Positions 1 to 26,138 of a stretch of DNA of 27,307 bases are shown here, in pieces (within the stretch, counting starts at the first letter, position 1; every line of letters starts with the position of its first letter). Origin of the DNA: a virus; IMG/VR virus record IMGVR_UViG_3300009100_000276, positions 1 to 27,307 of that record. One strand, 5' to 3'. Position numbers and translations under genes: made by a program. Under the pieces are notes generated by a model, which was not told the origin of the DNA, did not search any database, and worked only from the letters and a program-made list of their open reading frames with translations.

Positions 1-531
1 ACCGCCGTCCGTGATGCCCAGGGCGTGGTCGTTGACCACCAGACCGCCGGCCGTCTGCTCCTGCTCGAACTTGCAGTACTGGACGCGGATGTTGTTGTCC
101 GTGTTACCGTTGATGCGCGTCACGAAGTGCTTCGTGTGCACGGTCGAGGACAGGGCCGCCCAGTTGACGTACAGCCCTTGCAGGACGATGTACGCCGGGT
201 CGGAGGCGCCAGCATTGTCGAACGACAGCAGCGTCTGGGATGTGGTGTTGTCCTGGAAGCGAAGCTCGGCCAGGTCCGGGTTGGCGCTGGCGTTGTCCAC
301 GCCCTGCACCGTGAGGCCCGGATCGCTGAAACTGGTGCCGTGGTTGCGGTTGACGATGTTCACGCCGCTGGCCGAGGAGACCGTGAGCGGGCCGTCGTCG
401 GCCACCACGTTCACCACGTCGCCTTTGGCGGTGGCCAGGGCCATTACGGCCTGCCACGTTGCCTTTCGGTTCGCGTAGGTCGTCCCGTCGTTGGCATCGT
501 TTCCCGACGCCCCTACCCAGAAAGTGGCCAC
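1..531 (-). CDS. Beta-helix-like virion protein, 3'-truncated by window edge
   Basis: An open frame of 177 codons runs from a GTG at 531 off the left edge with no stop. The N-terminus (VATFWVGASGNDANDGTTY) matches the opening typical of right-handed parallel beta-helix (pectate-lyase-like) proteins, in which a G-x-DxNDG segment is followed by alternating short strands; V/N/D-rich strand repeats continue to the edge. Such proteins occur in phage tailspikes and fibres, so a virion-surface or adsorption role is inferred, not shown. The frame overlaps the end of the upstream methyltransferase gene (stop at 513) by 19 bases, and a GGGGA stretch sits just before the GTG. A depolymerase or a purely structural spike are both possible. 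The C-terminus, where an active site would help, is not in the window. Confidence 0.6.
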   Translation of the reverse strand, partial: MATFWVGASGNDANDGTTYANRKATWQAVMALATAKGDVVNVVADDGPLTVSSASGVNIVNRNHGTSFSDPGLTVQGVDNASANPDLAELRFQDNTTSQTLLSFDNAGASDPAYIVLQGLYVNWAALSSTVHTKHFVTRINGNTDNNIRVQYCKFEQEQTAGGLVVNDHALGITDGG

Positions 532-9065: not shown

Positions 9066-9437
9066 TCAGTCTTGGTCAGACGCTATGTAGGAGATTGACA
9101 CGACATCCGTGGCGCTGTCATTTACGACTACGACACTGGTAATCGAGGCGGAGAAGGCTGCGTAGGCGATGGACGTGCCGACGAGCGCCAAGCCGGAGGC
9201 CTGGCCGTTCACGCGGATTGTGACCTTGGAGCTGGCCTGCAGCAGGAAATTACGCGCGACGGCGATGCCGCCGAGAGAAAGGGTCACTGACTCCGCGGCT
9301 GCGACCTCCAAAGACTGAGCCGAGTGCTCCGTGAAGTCCGCCGCCACGGGATTGAAGTTCTGGTCGTAGAGAACCTTGTTGTTGTTCCTCAAGACCCTCA
9401 CGCGAACGCTGGGTTGGACCTGGATAACGTCGGCCAT
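9066..9437 (-). CDS. Hypothetical beta-rich protein overlapping terL
   Basis: The 123-aa protein (ADVIQVQPSVRVRVLRNNN onwards) is beta-rich with many Val/Ser/Thr/Ala residues and no catalytic motif. Its ATG at 9437 is preceded by GAGGAGA, a strong ribosome site. The first 188 bases lie inside the terminase frame, shifted by one base. The amino-acid pattern looks natural, whereas the overlapping terminase tail looks like an out-of-frame read, so this is the older coding frame here. A minor virion protein is likely given the neighbours (terminase and portal). Confidence 0.65.
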   Translation of the reverse strand: MADVIQVQPSVRVRVLRNNNKVLYDQNFNPVAADFTEHSAQSLEVAAAESVTLSLGGIAVARNFLLQASSKVTIRVNGQASGLALVGTSIAYAAFSASITSVVVVNDSATDVVSISYIASDQD

Positions 9438-10995
9438 CGGTCTCCTCGCGCGCCAGGGCATTCGCCATAGAGCGCAGCATGCTGTGGGTAAGACGCATCT
9501 GGTACACGTACCGGATGCAGTCGATCATGTCGTCGTTGGCCTTGATGGCCGTCTGCTTTTCGCCCTTGGCGCCCTGGAGCTTCGAGGAGCCCCAGCGCTC
9601 GTAGATGTAGTTCTCGAAGTTGTTGCGTACCGTCGGGCAGGTGTGGTATACCACCAGGCCGGGCTTGGACCACTCGTACTTGAGCCGCAGGGCCTCGTGG
9701 ATGGCGTTGATGCCGGCGTCCTTGTTGCGCTTGTAAGCGTCGGTGCACTGGATGCCGTAGTCGCCGAACTGCTCGGACACGGTCTCGCCGGAGGTCTTCT
9801 CCATCTCGTTGGCCGAGGTGTCGATGATGTACATCACCACAGGCTCAGTCTGGGCCGTGCGGCGCCAGATCGGGATCATCTTGTTCTTGGCCCAGTGCCG
9901 GCGCTCGCCCGCGTAGTGCCAGCCCTCCATCTCGCGCATGCGCTCGACCACGCCCGCCACGGTGCGGAGAGCGGGGTCGAACAGCTCGCGGTAGGCGTGC
10001 AGCTGGTTGTCCGGGCTGACCGCCACCCACAGCACGGCGATAGGCTTGCGCGGGTGCGGGTCGATCACACAGACGCGCGGCCAGCTCCTGGGGATGCCAG
10101 ACTCGGGGAGCGGCATCCAGAAGGGCTCCTCGGCGACCCACTCCGGGAACACTGTGCCCGCCAGATGGAGCGCCTTGCCGTGCTCGCGCGAGGCCCGCTC
10201 GTCAACTGGCAGATCCTCCAGGAACGACTCGATGGCCTTGTCTGGCAGGTGCCCGCCGTGGGAGACCGCATTGTCCCAGATGGACATGCGGCGCATCCAC
10301 ACCCGGCCGTCGCCGTTGTTCGCCTTCGCCACGAGCACCTGGTTCGTCCAGGGCTCGGAGAGCGGCGTCATCGTCAGCCAGCAGTGCCCGCTGAAGTCAA
10401 CGAGACCACGGCGCAGAGCATTGAAGATTCTCTGCGGCGGCGGTTCATCGCACCAGAACCAATGGCCGTTAGGGCCTTCAAAGGAATCGGGGTCCTGATC
10501 ATATGACATGAGATGTATGACGGAGCCGTTAGCAAAGTCATACCGAATAGGTACCCCTCTAGGATTTTTCTGAATGTTCGTAATCGCACCGGCTGGGGCC
10601 CATTCCATCAGCTTGGGGTGAACGGTTTGGAGGATGTTGACCTCGAAGGTCTTTATCGCAATGCGCCCGGTGTTAGGTACCGGGATAGGATCACCTGAAG
10701 GCAGACGAACAAGACGATGAGGATCGCCGTTAGGCAGCCAAGGACGCTCACCCAGCGCGTGCGCAACCGCCTCGACCGCGCCGCACGTCGTCTTGCCGCT
10801 GCGGTTGCCTCCCAGTACCACACGGACATCGCAGAGTTCCGCGGCATGAAAGTCACGTTGCTTTGCGTGCGGTCGATAGAAGGAGATCTTGTTGGCACCG
10901 ACTGTTTCCTTGAGCTGCCGGATCTTCAGGTATAGAGCTTTGAGGGCCTCGTATTCACTCGATTGGGTCTGAGGCGCCGAGGAGTCCTGGGTCAT
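9250..10995 (-). CDS. terL: Terminase large subunit
   Basis: The 581-aa protein is the DNA-packaging ATPase/nuclease. Walker A is GGNRSGKTT at residues 62-70, Walker B is FWCDEP with D183 and E184, and the nuclease domain shows acidic positions D312 (VCVIDPHP), D392 (YIIDTSAN) and D488/D489/D492 in KANDDMIDCIRY, in RNase-H-like order. It would pump genomic DNA through the portal and cut concatemers. The ATG at 10995 has GGAGAG upstream and overlaps the 108-aa gene by 41 bases; an in-frame codon at 11016 is the alternative. The last ~62 residues after D520 are Arg/Gly/Ser-rich and overlap the next gene in another frame, so a normal family member would end near residue 519. See findings. Confidence 0.92.
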   Translation of the reverse strand: MTQDSSAPQTQSSEYEALKALYLKIRQLKETVGANKISFYRPHAKQRDFHAAELCDVRVVLGGNRSGKTTCGAVEAVAHALGERPWLPNGDPHRLVRLPSGDPIPVPNTGRIAIKTFEVNILQTVHPKLMEWAPAGAITNIQKNPRGVPIRYDFANGSVIHLMSYDQDPDSFEGPNGHWFWCDEPPPQRIFNALRRGLVDFSGHCWLTMTPLSEPWTNQVLVAKANNGDGRVWMRRMSIWDNAVSHGGHLPDKAIESFLEDLPVDERASREHGKALHLAGTVFPEWVAEEPFWMPLPESGIPRSWPRVCVIDPHPRKPIAVLWVAVSPDNQLHAYRELFDPALRTVAGVVERMREMEGWHYAGERRHWAKNKMIPIWRRTAQTEPVVMYIIDTSANEMEKTSGETVSEQFGDYGIQCTDAYKRNKDAGINAIHEALRLKYEWSKPGLVVYHTCPTVRNNFENYIYERWGSSKLQGAKGEKQTAIKANDDMIDCIRYVYQMRLTHSMLRSMANALAREETDGRRYPGPTQRSREGLEEQQQGSLRPELQSRGGGLHGALGSVFGGRSRGVSDPFSRRHRRRA

Positions 10996-11281
10996 TTCTC
11001 TCCACCGCGAGTACAAGTTCGTAGATGCGCCCGAACCAGTCGTCCTTGAGGAGCGTGGTGCGCACCTGGCACAGGCCCAGATCCGCGTGCTCCACCAGGC
11101 CCATCTTGAGGGTCACGACCGGGAAGTGGCCGAAGCGGCTGTACCACTCGCGCAGGGCGTTGAACAGGAAGTAACCCAGCGCACTGGGGCGGTCGGACGT
11201 GCGGATGCCGTCGAGTACGAAGGCTATCGTCTCTTTGGCGGGTGACTCAATAGTAGCGAGCGCGACGCCGACCTTGGCCAT
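10955..11281 (-). CDS. Hypothetical 108-aa protein before terminase
   Basis: The product (AKVGVALATIESPAKETIAF onwards) has a mixed alpha/beta pattern with hydrophobic core segments (YFLFNALREWYSRFG, VVTLKMGLV) and no known motif. The ATG shares bases with the stop of the fibre-like gene (TAATG), so the two are translationally coupled. The 3' end overlaps the terminase start by 41 bases. No family recognised; its position suggests a packaging- or virion-related helper. Confidence 0.6.
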   Translation of the reverse strand: MAKVGVALATIESPAKETIAFVLDGIRTSDRPSALGYFLFNALREWYSRFGHFPVVTLKMGLVEHADLGLCQVRTTLLKDDWFGRIYELVLAVERNDPGLLGASDPIE

Positions 11282-12720
11282 TATGGTGCCTCTGCGAGGT
11301 ATTCGATAAAGGAGCCCGCGTAGACCGTCGTTGCCGTGACGTCCGAGGTGTTCTGCGACCACCGAAAAATGAAGGTGCCGCCGGAGGCACCAACGCGAAG
11401 GAATCCGTGAAACCACATGATGTTCAGCTCATTGGCCGTCATCAAGATGGGGTTATCTGATGTCCCAGTAGCGTCACCAAGAATGTTCGCTATCGCTGTG
11501 GCGCCGTCATCGAGCTTCCATGAGGTGACCAGAATGTCGGTCGTTGTACCGGAGTGCGAGACTTGCCACTTGAAGTCTGGAGTCGCACTGGTGGAGAAGA
11601 ACACGATCATGCCACGGATGGCATAGTTGGTGTTAGCTACGGTAGTGAACTGGAGATCGGCATCGTCGTTTACGGTGCTGTCGCTGGTGAGGTCTTGGTT
11701 GACGGTCTTGACCTTGACCACCCATACACCAGTACTGGTGCCGCCCGGTAGTGCCCACTTTACGCCCGTGGCTTCTGCCGAATCTGCGGTCAGCACGTGG
11801 CCGTTTGTGCCTACCGCCCTGGCCACCACGTTCGTGCCGTTGTCCACCAGCAGATCGCCCTTGGCCGAGGTCGGCGAGAGCGCGTCCATTGCGGCCGTCT
11901 GCGTCGTCTGGCCGGTGCCGCCATGTCCGATGGCGAGCGTGCCCGTCAGGCCGGCCACGTCCACATTGGCGAACTTGACCTTCTTGTGTGCGGCTGCGGA
12001 GACGTCGTAGGTGGCAAAGAAGTCCGCCGCCTCGTCGGGCGACGTGTCCTCGGTCAGCTCGTTGATGTCGAGGTCGAAGGTCCTGGAGGCGCTGATGTCC
12101 CCGCCGCCGGCAAGGCCGACGCCCGCGGTGAGCGTGACCGACGTGTGGTTGATGTGCTCGTTGGCCACGAAGCCCGTCAGGTTGTCGTGGTCGATGTTCC
12201 CGATCAGGATCTTCTTGTGGGTGCCGGCCGACGTGTCGTAGGAGGCCAGGAAGTCCGCGGCCTCGTCCGGGTTGGTGTCCTCCGTCAGTTCCGTGATGTC
12301 CAGATTGAACGTGCGGTTCGCGGAGATGTCGCCGCCGCCCGAGAGCCCCACACCGGCCGTGAGAGTCACCGAGGTGTGGTCAATGTGTTCATTCGCCACG
12401 AACCCGGTGAGGTTGTCGTGGTTGATCTGGGTCTCGTCCACGGTCAACGTCACGTTGGCCGCGGCGAGGTCCGGCTGGGACACCGTGAGGATGGCGTTGC
12501 CGGAGAGGATGTCGAAGATCGTCGTGGCGGCGCCACTGGGCAGGTCGGAGATGAGCGAGAGGCCCAGTACGCCGTCGATGACGGAGAGCACGAAGTCGTC
12601 GGTGGCCGGGACTTGGGTCTCCAGGCCGTCGATCAGGTCGTCGGTGTCGAGCCGCAAGGCATGCCGCAGCGGGATGCCGTGGCGGTCGCTGACTGTGCCG
12701 CGGATGTCAATGTCCGGCAT
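11281..12720 (-). CDS. Fibre-like virion protein with two 77-aa repeats
   Basis: The 479-aa product has a short N-terminal part, two tandem repeats starting HDNLTGFVANEHI (residues 101 and 178, each with LTAGVGLSGGGDIS or LTAGVGLAGGGDIS and ELTEDT.PDEAADF), then a GHGGTGQTT collar-like motif with KGDLLVDNGTN at about 266-296. It ends in a beta-rich C-terminal domain (about 330-479, VWVVKVKTVNQDLTSDS and FRWSQNTSDVTATTVYAGS) resembling trimeric jelly-roll receptor-binding heads. These modules are typical of phage fibres and head fibres. The ATG at 12720 has GGAGG five bases upstream and overlaps the candidate small terminase by 14 bases. Placement next to terminase genes, not tail genes, is unusual; a capsid fibre is equally possible. 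Confidence 0.75.
   Translation of the reverse strand: MPDIDIRGTVSDRHGIPLRHALRLDTDDLIDGLETQVPATDDFVLSVIDGVLGLSLISDLPSGAATTIFDILSGNAILTVSQPDLAAANVTLTVDETQINHDNLTGFVANEHIDHTSVTLTAGVGLSGGGDISANRTFNLDITELTEDTNPDEAADFLASYDTSAGTHKKILIGNIDHDNLTGFVANEHINHTSVTLTAGVGLAGGGDISASRTFDLDINELTEDTSPDEAADFFATYDVSAAAHKKVKFANVDVAGLTGTLAIGHGGTGQTTQTAAMDALSPTSAKGDLLVDNGTNVVARAVGTNGHVLTADSAEATGVKWALPGGTSTGVWVVKVKTVNQDLTSDSTVNDDADLQFTTVANTNYAIRGMIVFFSTSATPDFKWQVSHSGTTTDILVTSWKLDDGATAIANILGDATGTSDNPILMTANELNIMWFHGFLRVGASGGTFIFRWSQNTSDVTATTVYAGSFIEYLAEAP
11968..12420 (-). repeat. Tandem intragenic repeat, ~231-bp period
   Basis: Two consecutive coding repeats (12420-12190 and 12189-11968) encode near-identical 77- and 74-aa units. 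The protein identity is high while many third codon positions differ, so the duplication is not recent or is under protein-level selection. Confidence 0.8.
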
Positions 12721-16667: not shown

Positions 16668-17087
16668 CTAGCACGCAGGGGGACGTTGACTCGCACCACG
16701 CCGCAAGTCCAATGGCCACTAGGTGTTAGCCACTAGCCACTAGTCGGCAGGGCGCATATCGATTGTGGCGCGCGGCAGGGTGCGCACGCAACTGGCCACT
16801 AGCAGGCAGTGTGCTAGCTAACTGGCCACTAGCAGGCAGGATACGGTGCCGCTTGCGCGCAGTGGCCCTGGGGATTGGTGCTAGGTGCCAGTTGTGCGTT
16901 GGCACGGGGTTTTTTGTGGTGGCGGTTAGTATCCTGCACGTCGCCCCTTGCTGGCCACTAGTAGGCTAGCAGGCTAGCCTAAGTCTGCTAGCACCAATAC
17001 ACTAGCAGGCAAGTACCAATGACACTATGTCCCAGTAGGTTAGCAGCATGTGACAATGTGCACTTACACTGTAGGCTAGCAGGCTAG
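16668..17087. repeat. CTAG-dense iteron-like repeat field
   Basis: The tetranucleotide CTAG occurs 15 times in these 420 bases, far above what base composition predicts (about one or two). Perfect repeats: AACTGGCCACTAGCAGGCAG at 16790 and 16820; GTAGGCTAGCAGGCTAGC at 16961 and 17071; the core GCCACTAG six times between 16715 and 16961. Such arrays are typical of replication-initiator or repressor binding sites. Confidence 0.7.
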
Positions 17088-17734: not shown

Positions 17735-17979
17735 CCACGACAAGCGACAAGCGCGCCCTGTTTCATTTCTGGATTAAGCTTCCAGGTGGCAAGCGCGCCC
17801 ATCGTTACTGTATCGCGACGCCAGACGGAAACTATATTGGACCATTCTGGAGCCGCAAGGAAGCAACAACCCACGCGGCAGGCGGCTGGACACTTGGAAG
17901 TCTGGCATCCGCCAACGTGCACGCCGAGTGCACACCCGGTGCGACGTTTGTAGGATACGTGGAGTGGCGCCGTGGTTAA
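17731..17979 (+). CDS. Hypothetical 82-aa early protein
   Basis: The ATG overlaps the previous stop (ATGA). The product is a compact alpha/beta sequence rich in aromatics (ALFHFWIKLPGGKRAHRYC, GPFWSRKEATTHAAGGW, VGYVEWRRG) with no named motif. It overlaps the start of the GP88-like gene by eight bases. Confidence 0.55.
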   Translation: MTTTSDKRALFHFWIKLPGGKRAHRYCIATPDGNYIGPFWSRKEATTHAAGGWTLGSLASANVHAECTPGATFVGYVEWRRG

Positions 17980-18643
17980 ACTCACCTTGAAACAGGCGGA
18001 CGCAATCCACGGCGGGTTGTCCAATCCGTCAAAAATACCCGGCAAGGCCATAGGGTTGCCCGCGGCCGCATGTCCCACAGGCGCACGCCTTGCCGCGGCG
18101 GGAATCAACGGGCCGTGCACAGATTGCTACGCCATGAAAAACTTCTACGCCATGCCCGGGACGCAGGCAGCGCAGGCCAGACGGCTTGCGGCCATTCGCG
18201 GCCCGGAATGGGTGCGCGCGATGGTTACGTCGGTCGCGCGGCAAACGTGGTTTCGCTGGCACGATTCCGGCGACGTGCAGGATATGGCACACGCCTTGCG
18301 TATACTGGACGTAGTGCGCCAGACGCCCAATACGCGCCATTGGCTCCCGACCCAGGAATGGGGTATCTTCCGGCGTCTCGTGCGCGCCGGAGTGACGATG
18401 CCCACGAACCTAGTGGTGCGATTCTCCGCGCGCCAGTACGGGGACAAGCCCCGGCCGCGCGTCTGGCGCCTATGGTCAAGCGTAGTGGCGCCGGAAGCAT
18501 GGGACAACCTGCGCGCGGCGAACGCAAGCGGGGACACATCGCAGGGTTTCGCGTGTCCCTCACACGATCAAGGGAACGCATGCGGGGACTGCCGCGCGTG
18601 CTGGGATCCCGCGGTGACGCACGTGGTATATCGGAAACACTAG
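17972..18643 (+). CDS. GP88-domain-like phage protein
   Basis: The 223-aa product shows the layout of a widespread phage family that I associate with the Pfam 'gene product 88' domain: GNPSK-like GGLSNPSKIPGKAIGLPA, a Cys-rich CPTGARL...GPCTDCYAMK, WFRWHDSGDVQ, PNTRHWLPTQEW, NLVVRFSARQYG, and a C-terminal CPSHDQGNACGDCRACW. The conserved Cys clusters suggest a metal or Fe-S centre; the family's function is unknown to me. The GTG start overlaps the previous gene. It would be in the early operon. Confidence 0.7.
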   Translation: MVKLTLKQADAIHGGLSNPSKIPGKAIGLPAAACPTGARLAAAGINGPCTDCYAMKNFYAMPGTQAAQARRLAAIRGPEWVRAMVTSVARQTWFRWHDSGDVQDMAHALRILDVVRQTPNTRHWLPTQEWGIFRRLVRAGVTMPTNLVVRFSARQYGDKPRPRVWRLWSSVVAPEAWDNLRAANASGDTSQGFACPSHDQGNACGDCRACWDPAVTHVVYRKH

Positions 18644-18655
18644 AAGGGCTTTGAC

Positions 18656-18841
18656 ATGTTATACGGAATTCGCGCGCCTTGGTGGCCGTTTGACCCGCCA
18701 CGTTGCGAAACGTGCGGCGCATGGCACCACGCATGCGATTGTCTCGCGAGAGCGGCAGTGGAGCGTGTAAAAATCAAGCGGGCATTGCGCAAGCAATTGA
18801 TGGAGCAAGGGATCAGCTTGGAAGACATCAAGGGACTATAA
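18656..18841 (+). CDS. 61-aa protein with CETC/CDC motif
   Basis: The product (LYGIRAPWWPFDPPRCETCG and HHACDCLARAAVERVKIKR) has a small Cys/His cluster followed by a basic helix (KRALRKQLMEQGISLEDIK). AAGGG lies about eight bases upstream of the ATG. A small zinc-binding DNA- or protein-binding factor is likely. Confidence 0.5.
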   Translation: MLYGIRAPWWPFDPPRCETCGAWHHACDCLARAAVERVKIKRALRKQLMEQGISLEDIKGL

Positions 18842-18844
18842 AGC

Positions 18845-18893
18845 GGCCCGGCCGCGCCGTAAGCGGCCCCAGCCTAACGTCGGGATAGGCGCC
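18845..18893 (+). ncRNA. Two-hairpin RNA element, copy 1 (before DUF932 gene)
   Basis: A 49-base 5' leader element has hairpin 1 GGCCGC-GCCGTAA-GCGGCC (18850-18868) and hairpin 2 GCCTA-ACGTCGGGA-TAGGC (18872-18890), with a 3-base spacer and 25 bases before the ATG at 18919. The copy at 19973-20022 keeps both stems by paired changes. A CCC (18847-18849) could pair with GGG in the second loop as a pseudoknot. Likely a cis-regulatory RNA; identity unknown. Confidence 0.6.
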
Positions 18894-18918
18894 GACACTT
18901 GCTAAGGGAATTGACACA

Positions 18919-19962
18919 ATGGCACATAAGATTGTCCAGGGAATCGACCGGGTTGCGGCAACGCAAGCCCGCACTATCTGGCACGCGGACGAGACGCTTG
19001 GGGTTTCGCTGCGGGACTTCACTTTGACCGATCCGGAGTCCACGTTGCTGGAAATGGCCGGATACGTCTGGCCAGTGGACGCGGACAATGACGTCGCGCG
19101 CACGGTCGGGTTGCAGACTGCGGACGGGATCACAATTCCGTCGCACGTCGCGACTGTGTCACGCACTGGCCGCGTCCTGGGTGTCGTCGGAAGCGATTAC
19201 AACCCGGTGCCATTCAAGGTGATTCTGACCGATTGGTTGTATGCACTGGCGCTTGCGGGAGCGGCCCCGGAAACCCTGGGGACGTGCGACGAGGGCCGCA
19301 ACATGTTCGCCTCGGTGTTGGTTGCCGACGCGTTCCGCGTCCCTGGGGACGAGCACGAGACGCGCCCGTATTTCAACCTTGTCAGCAATCATACGGGACA
19401 GGGCGGCATCAAAGGCGCGTTTGCGACGTTCCGGCCCGTGTGCTTTAACACGGCCAGCATGTTCGGCGAGATTCACGACAAGGGCGCGCACAAGGTGCGG
19501 GATGCCTGGGTGCTCGTGAAGCACACGCGGTCGGCCACCCGCAGCATCAAGGAGGCCGTGGCGTGGATCGTGGACGGGCGCAAGCGTGCGCAAGAGGAAC
19601 AGGAATTGCTTGCGCGCATGGCCGGCGTCACGGTGTCCCAGGCCAACGTCGGGAATTTTGTCGAGCGGTATATTTCACTCGGCGACACACCCAAGGCGGA
19701 AGCCCGGCGCAGCGGCGAGCGGGACAAGTTTTTCGCTGCAATGGGCGCCGCGGACCTGGGCGCGCATGCGCTCACGGGGCGCGGAATCACCGCTTACGGC
19801 CTGTTCCAGGCGGTGACTAACTTCGAAGACTGGCAGTCCACCGTGCGCCGCACGGATGACACGCCGGTCGCGACACGTCGGGCCTTCCGCGCCTTCATGG
19901 GCGAGCGGGAGCCGGAGAAGCAGACCGCCCGGCAGCACATCCTGGAACTTGCGGGCATCTAA
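18919..19962 (+). CDS. DUF932 (phage/plasmid-like TIGR03299) protein
   Basis: The 347-aa protein has the DUF932 hallmarks: RVLGVVGSDYNPVPFKVILT after a beta strand, a central TLGTCDEGRNMFASV and then FNLVSNHTGQGG, and RPVCFNTASM matching the family's R-V-C-N-T motif. The C-terminal half is helical and Arg-rich. DUF932 proteins are common in phages and plasmids; some are suspected to act in DNA metabolism or recombination, but their function is not settled. A GGGAAT site and copy 1 of the RNA element lie just upstream; it is the largest gene of the early module. Confidence 0.85.
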   Translation: MAHKIVQGIDRVAATQARTIWHADETLGVSLRDFTLTDPESTLLEMAGYVWPVDADNDVARTVGLQTADGITIPSHVATVSRTGRVLGVVGSDYNPVPFKVILTDWLYALALAGAAPETLGTCDEGRNMFASVLVADAFRVPGDEHETRPYFNLVSNHTGQGGIKGAFATFRPVCFNTASMFGEIHDKGAHKVRDAWVLVKHTRSATRSIKEAVAWIVDGRKRAQEEQELLARMAGVTVSQANVGNFVERYISLGDTPKAEARRSGERDKFFAAMGAADLGAHALTGRGITAYGLFQAVTNFEDWQSTVRRTDDTPVATRRAFRAFMGEREPEKQTARQHILELAGI

Positions 19963-19972
19963 ACCCGTAACG

Positions 19973-20022
19973 GGCCCGGCCGAGCCCTAATCGGCCCCCA
20001 GCCCGACGCGGGGATGGGCTCC
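19973..20022 (+). ncRNA. Two-hairpin RNA element, copy 2
   Basis: Located 10 bases after the DUF932 stop and 23 bases before ATG 20046. Hairpin 1 is GGCCGA-GCCCTAA-TCGGCC (19978-19996) and hairpin 2 is GCCCG-ACGCGGGGA-TGGGC (20001-20019). Relative to copy 1, the closing pair of stem 1 changes C-G to A-T and stem 2 changes T-A to C-G, with the helices kept. The loop GCC(G/C)TAA is nearly constant. Confidence 0.6.
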
Positions 20023-20045
20023 CGCACCCAAAGGGAGGTCGCGAC

Positions 20046-20276
20046 ATGCGACAACTGGAGCGATTGAATCTCAAGAACCCCGGCACCGTCGGCCGTCTGG
20101 AAATGTGGTACGGCTGGGCGCGCCCGGATGCCGGCGTGATCTGGAGCCGGTTCCCCGAAGCGGGACGAGCGGCCGACTTCTGCTGCGTCGTGGAAACTAA
20201 GGAATGGGACGAGGTGCTAGTGCGCTTTGCACTGGCGGTGTACAGGGAGAACGCGGAGGCGACACATGCGTCGTGA
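20046..20276 (+). CDS. Hypothetical 76-aa protein
   Basis: The product (RQLERLNLKNPGTVGRLEMW onwards) is a mixed alpha/beta sequence with aromatics and an FCCVVETKEWDE stretch; no motif recognised. GGGAGG lies about six bases upstream, directly after RNA element copy 2, so it is probably controlled by that element. It overlaps the next gene by 11 bases. Confidence 0.5.
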   Translation: MRQLERLNLKNPGTVGRLEMWYGWARPDAGVIWSRFPEAGRAADFCCVVETKEWDEVLVRFALAVYRENAEATHAS

Positions 20277-20412
20277 GCGGAGAATCAACGGCCCGATCCT
20301 GTTGGTCGTGATTAGTCTCTTGACATGGGCGGTCGGATTCGGTATCCTGGCTGCCCGCATCATCGGCCAGCAGGCCGGGCATGCTCACACGGAGGAATGT
20401 TGGGATGGCTGA
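20266..20412 (+). CDS. 48-aa single-span membrane protein
   Basis: The product MRRERRINGPILLVVISLLT continues into WAVGFGILAARIIG, one clear transmembrane helix with a basic N-terminus (inside) and a short His/Glu/Cys tail. GGAGG is six bases before the ATG. Unknown role; inner-membrane early protein. Confidence 0.5.
   Translation: MRRERRINGPILLVVISLLTWAVGFGILAARIIGQQAGHAHTEECWDG
20320..20348 (+). promoter_or_regulatory. Possible internal sigma-70 promoter
   Basis: TTGACA (20320-20325) and TATCCT (20343-20348) are separated by 17 bases inside the 48-aa gene. It could drive the 84- and 68-aa genes. Its bases also encode transmembrane residues, so chance is not excluded. Confidence 0.3.
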
Positions 20413-21016: not shown

Positions 21017-21033
21017 GGGACTGTGACTGTACG

Positions 21034-21082
21034 CTAGCTTGCTAGCTACTAGCAGGCTAGTACCAGTCTACAGGATAGCTAG
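21034..21082. repeat. Second CTAG-rich repeat cluster
   Basis: Five CTAG sites in 49 bases, including CTAGCAGGCTAG (21049-21060), which is identical to sequence in the field at 16961 and 17071. The two fields bracket the first plus-strand gene module. Confidence 0.6.
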
Positions 21083-21267
21083 ACAGCAAGTATCAAGCAG
21101 TAGGACAGTAAGTACCAATACGAAAGCATGAAAAAGTCAATAGTCGGTTAGTATGCTAACGTACAGTATAAGGAATCTTGGATTGGTCTGGTTCTTGCTT
21201 CTCCCCATCCCAGTAGTGGGCCTCCCCGCGATTACACGCCGATTTTCCAGACACTAGGAGGATTAAC

Positions 21268-24900: not shown

Positions 24901-25109
24901 GCTACGTGGACGACCGCTACAAGCTGGCCGTGGAGGTCTACGCCCTTACGCACACGGCCCTGCAGGGACTGAACGACGCGGTGGTGTTCAAGCTGTACGA
25001 CCACCTGGAAGTCGAGGCCTTGCAGCGCACCGTGGCGAGTGCTATGCTCAAAGCGCAGGACTTCAAAGAGAAGATGCAGAGGGAACTGGATGCTGCCGAA
25101 GACGCTTGA
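24897..25109 (+). CDS. Hypothetical 70-aa helical protein
   Basis: The product (SYVDDRYKLAVEVYALTHTA onwards) is almost fully helical (QGLNDAVVFKLYDHLEVEAL, LKAQDFKEKMQRELDAAED). The GTG start overlaps the previous stop, and the 3' end overlaps the primase start. Probably a small partner of the primase, by position only. Confidence 0.45.
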   Translation: MSYVDDRYKLAVEVYALTHTALQGLNDAVVFKLYDHLEVEALQRTVASAMLKAQDFKEKMQRELDAAEDA

Positions 25110-25905
25110 CGACCTCACTGGGCCCTGGAAGCGCACGACGCAGATCGTGTATCGAGACTGCCCAGCTTGTGGCCGGGACACGTGGAAGCTGTACGTGGCG
25201 CCCGACACCGGGATGTGGCACTGCTTCGGATGCCACGCGGCTGGACGCCTCGACATGGGGAACGCCAACGCGCTCGCTCTTCTGTATGCCAAGAAATCCC
25301 AGGGACCGCCCAAGTGGAATCCGGTGGAGCTGCCTCCCTTCAGCCCCCTATCGGATGCGGCGCATACCTTCCTCGCGGAGAAGTACGGACTCTCCCGCGG
25401 GCAGAGCGCCCGGTACTCCCTGGTCGAGGGTGCGGCCGAGCCGTACACCGGCCGCATCATCATCCCCTACTTCGACACCAGGGGCGACACAATCTACTAC
25501 AACGCGCGGGTCTACATGGCGAACGGCCTGCCCAAGTACAAAAGCGCAGACGGCAAGCACCCGCTCTACATGCCGCTGCCGTTGATGCCGTGGCTTTGGC
25601 CGACTCCGCGCCCAATCGTCCTCGTCGAGGGATGCTTTGACGCCATCAAGGCGGCGGAAGCGGGCATGCCGGTAGTCGCTATCGGTGGCACCAGCCTGCC
25701 GCGGCATCTGATGCCGAGCCTCGTGGAGCTGGTCGGCCGGCGCCCGGTCGCCATCGCCCTGGACTCTGACGCCCTGGACAAGTCCCTGGCCCTTCAACGC
25801 AAACTACAACCATTCTTGGCCGGGGAAGTGCGCACAGTTATGCTGCCCGCCGGCCACGACCCGGGCAGCATGTCGATTGACCAACTGCAGGAGGTTCTTC
25901 AATGA
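25090..25905 (+). CDS. DnaG-like primase
   Basis: The 271-aa protein has an N-terminal zinc ribbon (C24-PA-C27 and C45-FG-C48 within GMWHCFGCHAAGRL), a core with GRIIIPYFDTRG, and a TOPRIM part: IVLVEGCFDAIKA (E180, D184) and VAIALDSDALDKS (D225, D227), then HDPGS. It would make RNA primers at the replication fork. Fusion to helicase is absent; the C-terminal helicase-interaction domain is also missing or short, so it is a compact phage primase. ATG 25090 is chosen for GAGGG upstream and the natural N-terminus. The polymerase follows two genes later. Confidence 0.85.
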   Translation: MLPKTLDDLTGPWKRTTQIVYRDCPACGRDTWKLYVAPDTGMWHCFGCHAAGRLDMGNANALALLYAKKSQGPPKWNPVELPPFSPLSDAAHTFLAEKYGLSRGQSARYSLVEGAAEPYTGRIIIPYFDTRGDTIYYNARVYMANGLPKYKSADGKHPLYMPLPLMPWLWPTPRPIVLVEGCFDAIKAAEAGMPVVAIGGTSLPRHLMPSLVELVGRRPVAIALDSDALDKSLALQRKLQPFLAGEVRTVMLPAGHDPGSMSIDQLQEVLQ

Positions 25906-26138
25906 AGGCTGACGCGCGTGGGCGGATCCGGTTCACCAAGGCCGGCTTACGCTTTGAGATTCTACCCAGCGACCCGACCGTGGTCACCATCTACAATCGC
26001 GTGGACAACACCGAGCGGAAGATTGGCACGGTCAACCTGTTCGAGGCCGGGCTGGACCTGATCTTCCAGGGTGGCGACGGGCTCATTACCAAGGGCGTCG
26101 AGACCGCCGAGCCCGTCGGTGTGGGCGGGTACTTCTGA
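25902..26138 (+). CDS. Hypothetical 78-aa protein
   Basis: The product (KADARGRIRFTKAGLRFEIL onwards) is beta-rich and ends VGVGGYF. It overlaps the primase stop (ATGA) and its own stop overlaps the polymerase start (TGATG). A single-strand-binding-like or replication partner role is only suggested by position; no OB signature is clear. Confidence 0.5.
   Translation: MKADARGRIRFTKAGLRFEILPSDPTVVTIYNRVDNTERKIGTVNLFEAGLDLIFQGGDGLITKGVETAEPVGVGGYF

Follow-up and report, generated by a model that had tools for sequence, protein, structure and literature searches.

Why should a phage carry two nearly alike structured leaders in front of two different genes? The DNA analyzed here (the window) is a 27,307-base IMG/VR virus record in which structural genes, the terminase (9250–11016) among them, occupy the minus strand to the left of ~16 kb, and early-type genes occupy the plus strand to the right. 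The latter include GP88 (17972–18643), a 61-aa gene (18656–18841), a DUF932 gene of 347 aa (TIGR03299, phrog_1221; 18919–19962), a 76-aa gene (20046–20276), a primase gene (25039–25905), and a DNA polymerase exonuclease domain beginning at 26138. The 76-aa protein had no match in Pfam, PHROG, or NCBIfam, and no DUF669 or Sak4 gene was detectable in this 27-kb fragment. A sequence-only reading had placed twin two-hairpin RNA elements in the gaps before DUF932 (18845–18893) and before the 76-aa gene (19973–20022), and had regarded them as selected RNA structures that may tie the expression of both genes to one signal; a covariance-model search, a covariation test, and a comparison with Rfam were named as checks. 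Both leaders were found there with the hairpin order, spacing, and base changes described, and with a mean column identity of 79% over the aligned leaders. Their full extents are slightly larger, 18844–18896 for copy 1 and 19972–20025 for copy 2.

Each copy consists of two hairpins in tandem, and the loop of each can pair with the bases just 5′ of it to give two consecutive H-type pseudoknots on the plus strand. In pseudoknot 1 of copy 1 (18844–18868), helix S1 joins CGGC (18844–18847) with GCCG (18856–18859), helix S2 joins GGCCGC (18850–18855) with GCGGCC (18863–18868), and a UAA spacer (18860–18862) separates GCCG from GCGGCC. Pseudoknot 2 (18869–18896) opens with a conserved CCA, followed by S1 between GCC (18872–18874) and GGC (18888–18890) and S2 between GTCGG (18879–18883) and CCGAC (18892–18896). 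The layout of copy 1 is CGGC-CC-GGCCGC-GCCG-UAA-GCGGCC, then CCA, then GCC(UA)-AC-GUCGG-GA-(UA)GGC-G-CCGAC, after which a 22-nt leader (18897–18918) with a Shine–Dalgarno-like AAGGGA leads to the DUF932 start codon. Copy 2 reads GGGC-CC-GGCCGA-GCCC-UAA-UCGGCC, then CCCA, then GCC(CG)-AC-GCGGG-GA-(UG)GGC-U-CCCGC. Its pseudoknot 1 (19972–19996) pairs GGGC (19972–19975) with GCCC (19984–19987) in S1 and GGCCGA (19978–19983) with TCGGCC (19991–19996) in S2; its pseudoknot 2 (19997–20025), with the same conserved CCA, pairs GCC (20001–20003) with GGC (20017–20019) in S1 and GCGGG (20008–20012) with CCCGC (20021–20025) in S2. The 20-nt leader of copy 2 (20026–20045) carries the Shine–Dalgarno sequence AAAGGGAGG. 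When a descriptor with this layout was run over both strands, the two copies were its sole matches in the window, and 200 Markov-1 simulated windows gave none; the layout was derived from the copies, which makes this test post hoc. The single-sequence folding energies were unremarkable (z = −0.53 and −2.01 versus shuffled sequences), and the case for structure therefore rests on comparison with relatives.

Such relatives were found in IMG/VR viruses. A pattern taken from pseudoknot 2 gave three true homologues in viral contigs, each just 5′ of a DUF669-like gene and behind a Sak4-like gene, and a Sak4 alignment search together with two further sequence patterns enlarged the set to 29 distinct examples besides the two of the window. 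The element stands directly 5′ of a DUF669-type gene in 28 of the 29, usually within a Sak4 recombination operon. Pattern searches that were blind to the genes led almost exclusively to sites before DUF669 genes, the one exception being L153 (IMGVR_UViG_3300000228_000468), where the element precedes a 107-aa gene, with an endolysin-like gene upstream and the terminase large subunit downstream in the record. The same contig, which holds the element outside the DUF669 context, also has a match to the Type II hammerhead ribozyme at 275–334 (+), scoring 38.4 bits versus the Rfam gathering score of 37 bits. Most element-bearing records have a single copy, and two per record, as in the window, are unusual. 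The two window copies are each other's nearest relatives (75% identity), a grouping that is weakly supported (0.43). To avoid circularity, a covariance model (R2) was built from the 29 homologues only, leaving the window copies out. R2 recovered both copies, scoring one at 47.9 bits (E = 1.7e-10) and the other at 39.1 bits (E = 2.3e-8), and the next match in the window reached 12.9 bits (E = 0.06). A DNA pattern from pseudoknot 1 gave 22 matches and no convincing homologue, and a pattern search of genome contigs gave 5 matches, all by chance. BLAST searches of the locus and of one element against phage records returned nothing relevant, so the family is known so far only from uncultivated viruses.

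The homologues and the window copies were aligned in a model-fitted alignment of 31 distinct rows (A6), which was fitted to these helices and whose pair counts lean their way accordingly. Both-side changes occur at 11 of the 17 pairs, including all six pairs of the pseudoknot 1 S2 helix across the 31 sequences and four of the five pairs of the pseudoknot 2 S2 helix, in which 100% of the cells pair. The covariation score was 0.390, versus 0.122 ± 0.014 for shuffled alignments; none of 500 shuffles reached it, and it was lost when the partner strand was slid along. In our own R-scape-like implementation (a G-test with average-product correction, a null that re-places the substitutions on a tree in 60 replicates, the tree taken from the same alignment, and a corrected register in the short-loop rows), predicted S2 pairs of the two pseudoknots filled the top six places among all column pairs, and five of them had E < 0.05 under this tree-keeping null. 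The sequence-only reading had seen one helix per pseudoknot. Its stem 1, GGCCGC/GCGGCC changing to GGCCGA/TCGGCC, was confirmed in the 31 distinct sequences. The invariant GCC/GGC core of its stem 2 also held, but the outer pairs of that stem (T-A to C-G and A-T to G-T) do not stay paired in the relatives and ranked 165 and 1378 in the column-pair test. The two helices it had overlooked are GTCGG/CCGAC, which becomes GCGGG/CCCGC in copy 2 by two double compensatory changes, and CGGC/GCCG, which becomes GGGC/GCCC. The suggested CCC/GGG loop pairing gained no support, the pseudoknot partners being different ones. Some observations count against the tandem-pseudoknot model. Pseudoknot 2 is closed by the same GCC/GGC in all 31 sequences, so that covariation speaks neither for nor against this closure; the closure of pseudoknot 1 by its loop and the upstream bases is short and has two registers; and the predicted minimum-energy fold of copy 2 departs from the model. 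The loop and upstream bases of pseudoknot 1 pair over at least 3 bp in 27 of the 31 sequences, and 0 of 2000 loop shuffles were as high. Several unpaired letters, namely the CCA, the C before S2, and a GAUA, are almost invariant, suggesting that a ligand or protein recognizes them or that they make tertiary contacts.

The position of the element is likewise conserved. In nearly all cases it starts at the upstream stop codon or a few bases off (in copy 1, 2 nt after the TAA at 18839–18841), and it lies between the end of the upstream gene and the next ribosome-binding site. Its 3′ end is 18 to 27 nt from the start codon in all scorable cases, four apparent distances of 14 nt being an artifact of an upstream in-frame ATG. 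The leader between the element and the start codon contains the ribosome-binding site and is 41% A and 8% U, and its predicted mean unpaired probability is 0.69, versus 0.45 for the element. Its unvarying sense orientation and distance favor a role in the mRNA when translation is initiated. Taken with the homologues and the covariation, this constant spacing strongly supports the view that the 5′ leaders contain a selected RNA structure. An intrinsic terminator was rejected, as the sense strand has no terminator-like T-run, and a self-cleaving ribozyme was rejected, as the Rfam ribozyme models have no match there. Copy 2 could also fold differently, its Shine–Dalgarno GGGAG pairing with the CUCCC at the end of pseudoknot 2 (20018–20037) in competition with that pseudoknot. 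Among the cases examined only copy 2 can form such a pairing, and Shine–Dalgarno sequestration was therefore rejected as the common mechanism.

The protein encoded downstream of the homologues fits a DUF669 phage ssDNA-binding protein (SSB), judging from a modeled OB-fold and its PHROG annotation. In PHROG, the DUF669-type proteins have matches to ssDNA-binding families, and the Pfam DUF669 match passes the cut-off in one homologue record (L035) and falls below the threshold in another (L040). An AlphaFold model (pLDDT 81) shows an OB-fold whose best solved relative is the plasmid ssDNA-binding protein PrgE (Z score 9.5–9.8), with bacterial SSBs scoring lower. The DUF669 protein of phage HK620 was shown experimentally to be an SSB that adjoins and works with Sak4 (PMC5928155). 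The link to DUF932 drawn by the sequence-only reading did not generalize: six DUF932-bearing phage genomes had no match to the element above noise, and 29 element-bearing records contain no DUF932. Viral contigs gave no matches to the DUF932 protein as query, and seven aligned DUF932 proteins showed too little conservation for a search. In Microbacterium phage Hendrix, DUF932 is located in the same module as Sak4 and an SSB, and hence can belong to that module. That the two genes behind the window's copies, DUF932 and the 76-aa gene, share a signal is plausible.

Rfam 15 was compared with the window, the region, and eight homologue loci, and nothing was found over the elements (no gathering-level score and no E below 5). 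No report of the family was found in the papers searched, and these tandem-pseudoknot elements apparently represent an unreported RNA family. The closest known RNA in form is STAXI (RF01728), which consists of tandem-repeated pseudoknots close to genes whose products bind ssDNA or otherwise handle DNA (PMC2864571). In our elements, in contrast, the two pseudoknots are unlike each other, and their distance to the start codon is fixed. The STAXI covariance model matched none of 11 homologue records, and its sole match in the window, at 1406–1449 and off the elements, stayed at noise level with 5.6 bits (E = 1.75; cut-off 40.5 bits). UUCG tetraloops, which are frequent in STAXI, are absent, the loops here being of the GCGUA, CGUCA, GCCGUAA, and GGAUAGGCG types; membership in STAXI was rejected. 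In likely working, the closest system is the gene 32 operator of phages T4 and RB69, in which gp32 binds a pseudoknot that lies 5′ of an unstructured leader and, when the ssDNA has been saturated, shuts down its own translation (PMC535899, PMC3014915). Our homologues likewise have a pseudoknot 5′ of an SSB gene's ribosome-binding site, whereas the genes downstream in the window are DUF932 and the 76-aa gene; an unstructured leader before the start codon is predicted here as well. The T4 pseudoknot lies ~67 nt upstream and the unstructured leader of RB69 spans A(−1) to A(−45), whereas our two tandem pseudoknots end 18 to 27 nt from the start. The gene 32 leader is A+U-rich, and ours is A-rich and U-poor. 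The SSB family is DUF669, not gp32, and repression by it is proposed here by analogy.

Here, we propose a mechanism for the element, whose conserved RNA structure, cis position, and association with SSB genes are matters of observation. Because it nearly always precedes an SSB gene in other phages, it is probably a switch controlling the amount of protein made. We tentatively take it to be a translational operator, and the most likely repressor would be the phage's own DUF669 SSB, a reading that we hold possible at somewhat less than even confidence. The protein would bind the pseudoknots beside the A-rich, mostly unpaired leader and block the access of ribosomes, so that synthesis of the downstream protein would require free repressor to be scarce. 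Once the ssDNA is covered, surplus DUF669 SSB would silence the mRNA that encodes it, as gp32 does in T4 and RB69. In the window's phage, the same operator would be used twice and would place DUF932 and the 76-aa gene under the SSB signal, the SSB gene itself not being in the 27-kb fragment. A broader form is a post-transcriptional regulon, in which one tandem-pseudoknot operator stands before several unlinked genes and the level of free phage SSB, and thus of exposed ssDNA, sets the translation of the SSB, DUF932, and others; we consider this extension doubtful. We take the elements to be a new RNA family, one that probably works by SSB feedback and that, unusually, has spread to other genes in the phage of the window.

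Some observations count against an SSB operator. The window fragment has no detectable DUF669 or Sak4 gene, the regulated genes of the window and of L153 are not SSB genes, the conserved unpaired letters hint at sequence-specific recognition unlike that of a generic ssDNA binder, and many AT-rich Sak4–DUF669 loci have no element. The element may instead be the operator of another RNA-binding protein, such as a RegA-type phage repressor or a host or ribosomal protein, that acts on several phage mRNAs, that of the SSB included. Targets that vary by phage (SSB genes, DUF932 and the 76-aa gene, and the 107-aa gene near terminase genes) agree with such a regulator, as do the conserved unpaired letters, but the strong bias toward SSB genes in the gene-blind searches would be left unexplained and no candidate regulator gene lies beside all copies; we regard it as unlikely. 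A ligand-free insulator or stabilizer between cistrons would set translational coupling or guard the downstream mRNA against decay, with the result that the upstream and downstream products differ in amount. The site at the upstream stop codon, where a terminating ribosome would unfold pseudoknot 1, is consistent with this, and so are the constant distance to the next ribosome-binding site and the need for large amounts of SSB. The conserved unpaired letters and the GCC/GGC closure, however, exceed what a mere roadblock needs, and the many similar operons lacking the element also argue against it, making this role rather unlikely.

One common form of riboswitch is a small H-type pseudoknot ahead of a ribosome-binding site, and our element has this form. 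Pseudoknots that bind a small molecule or ion and alter access to the ribosome-binding site would also account for the conserved unpaired letters. Rfam gave no match, however, the downstream genes are not metabolic, and the element strands show no conserved pairing to the Shine–Dalgarno sequence; a riboswitch is thus quite improbable. Chance likeness or a plain sequence repeat lacking RNA function would suit the GC-rich window and its near-shuffled folding energies. It is refuted by the 29 distinct homologues with their compensatory changes and fixed position, and by the recovery of both copies with R2, and its probability is practically nil.

This compact and well-supported phage RNA family, for which no Rfam entry was found, provides the widespread Sak4–DUF669 recombination module with a candidate control element. 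It can now be tested directly whether pseudoknot feedback on ssDNA-binding proteins, as in T4-type phages, arose independently elsewhere. If the co-regulation of DUF932 in the window is true, it would be the first functional hint for this common phage protein. If the regulon reading is true, gp32-type feedback would be widened from one gene to many, and both the RNA and the SSB family involved would be different ones.

Further features were observed around the early genes. In another record, L028, GP88 adjoins DUF932 on the minus strand (10799–12295, reverse-complement coordinates) as in the window, the terminases being 51% identical, and this gene order is kept without the element; the two records suggest that GP88–DUF932 is a conserved gene pair. 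Just 3′ of the 76-aa gene, a sigma-70-like promoter match (20320–20348) has TTGACA, 17 nt, and TATCCT, with 10 of 12 positions matching. Clustered repeats of the CTAGCAGGC/TAGGCTAGC type (families D1, D3, and D18) occur at 16783–17087 and 21033–21159, in apparently non-coding stretches on both flanks of the early-gene block, and are possibly origin-like or regulatory repeats.
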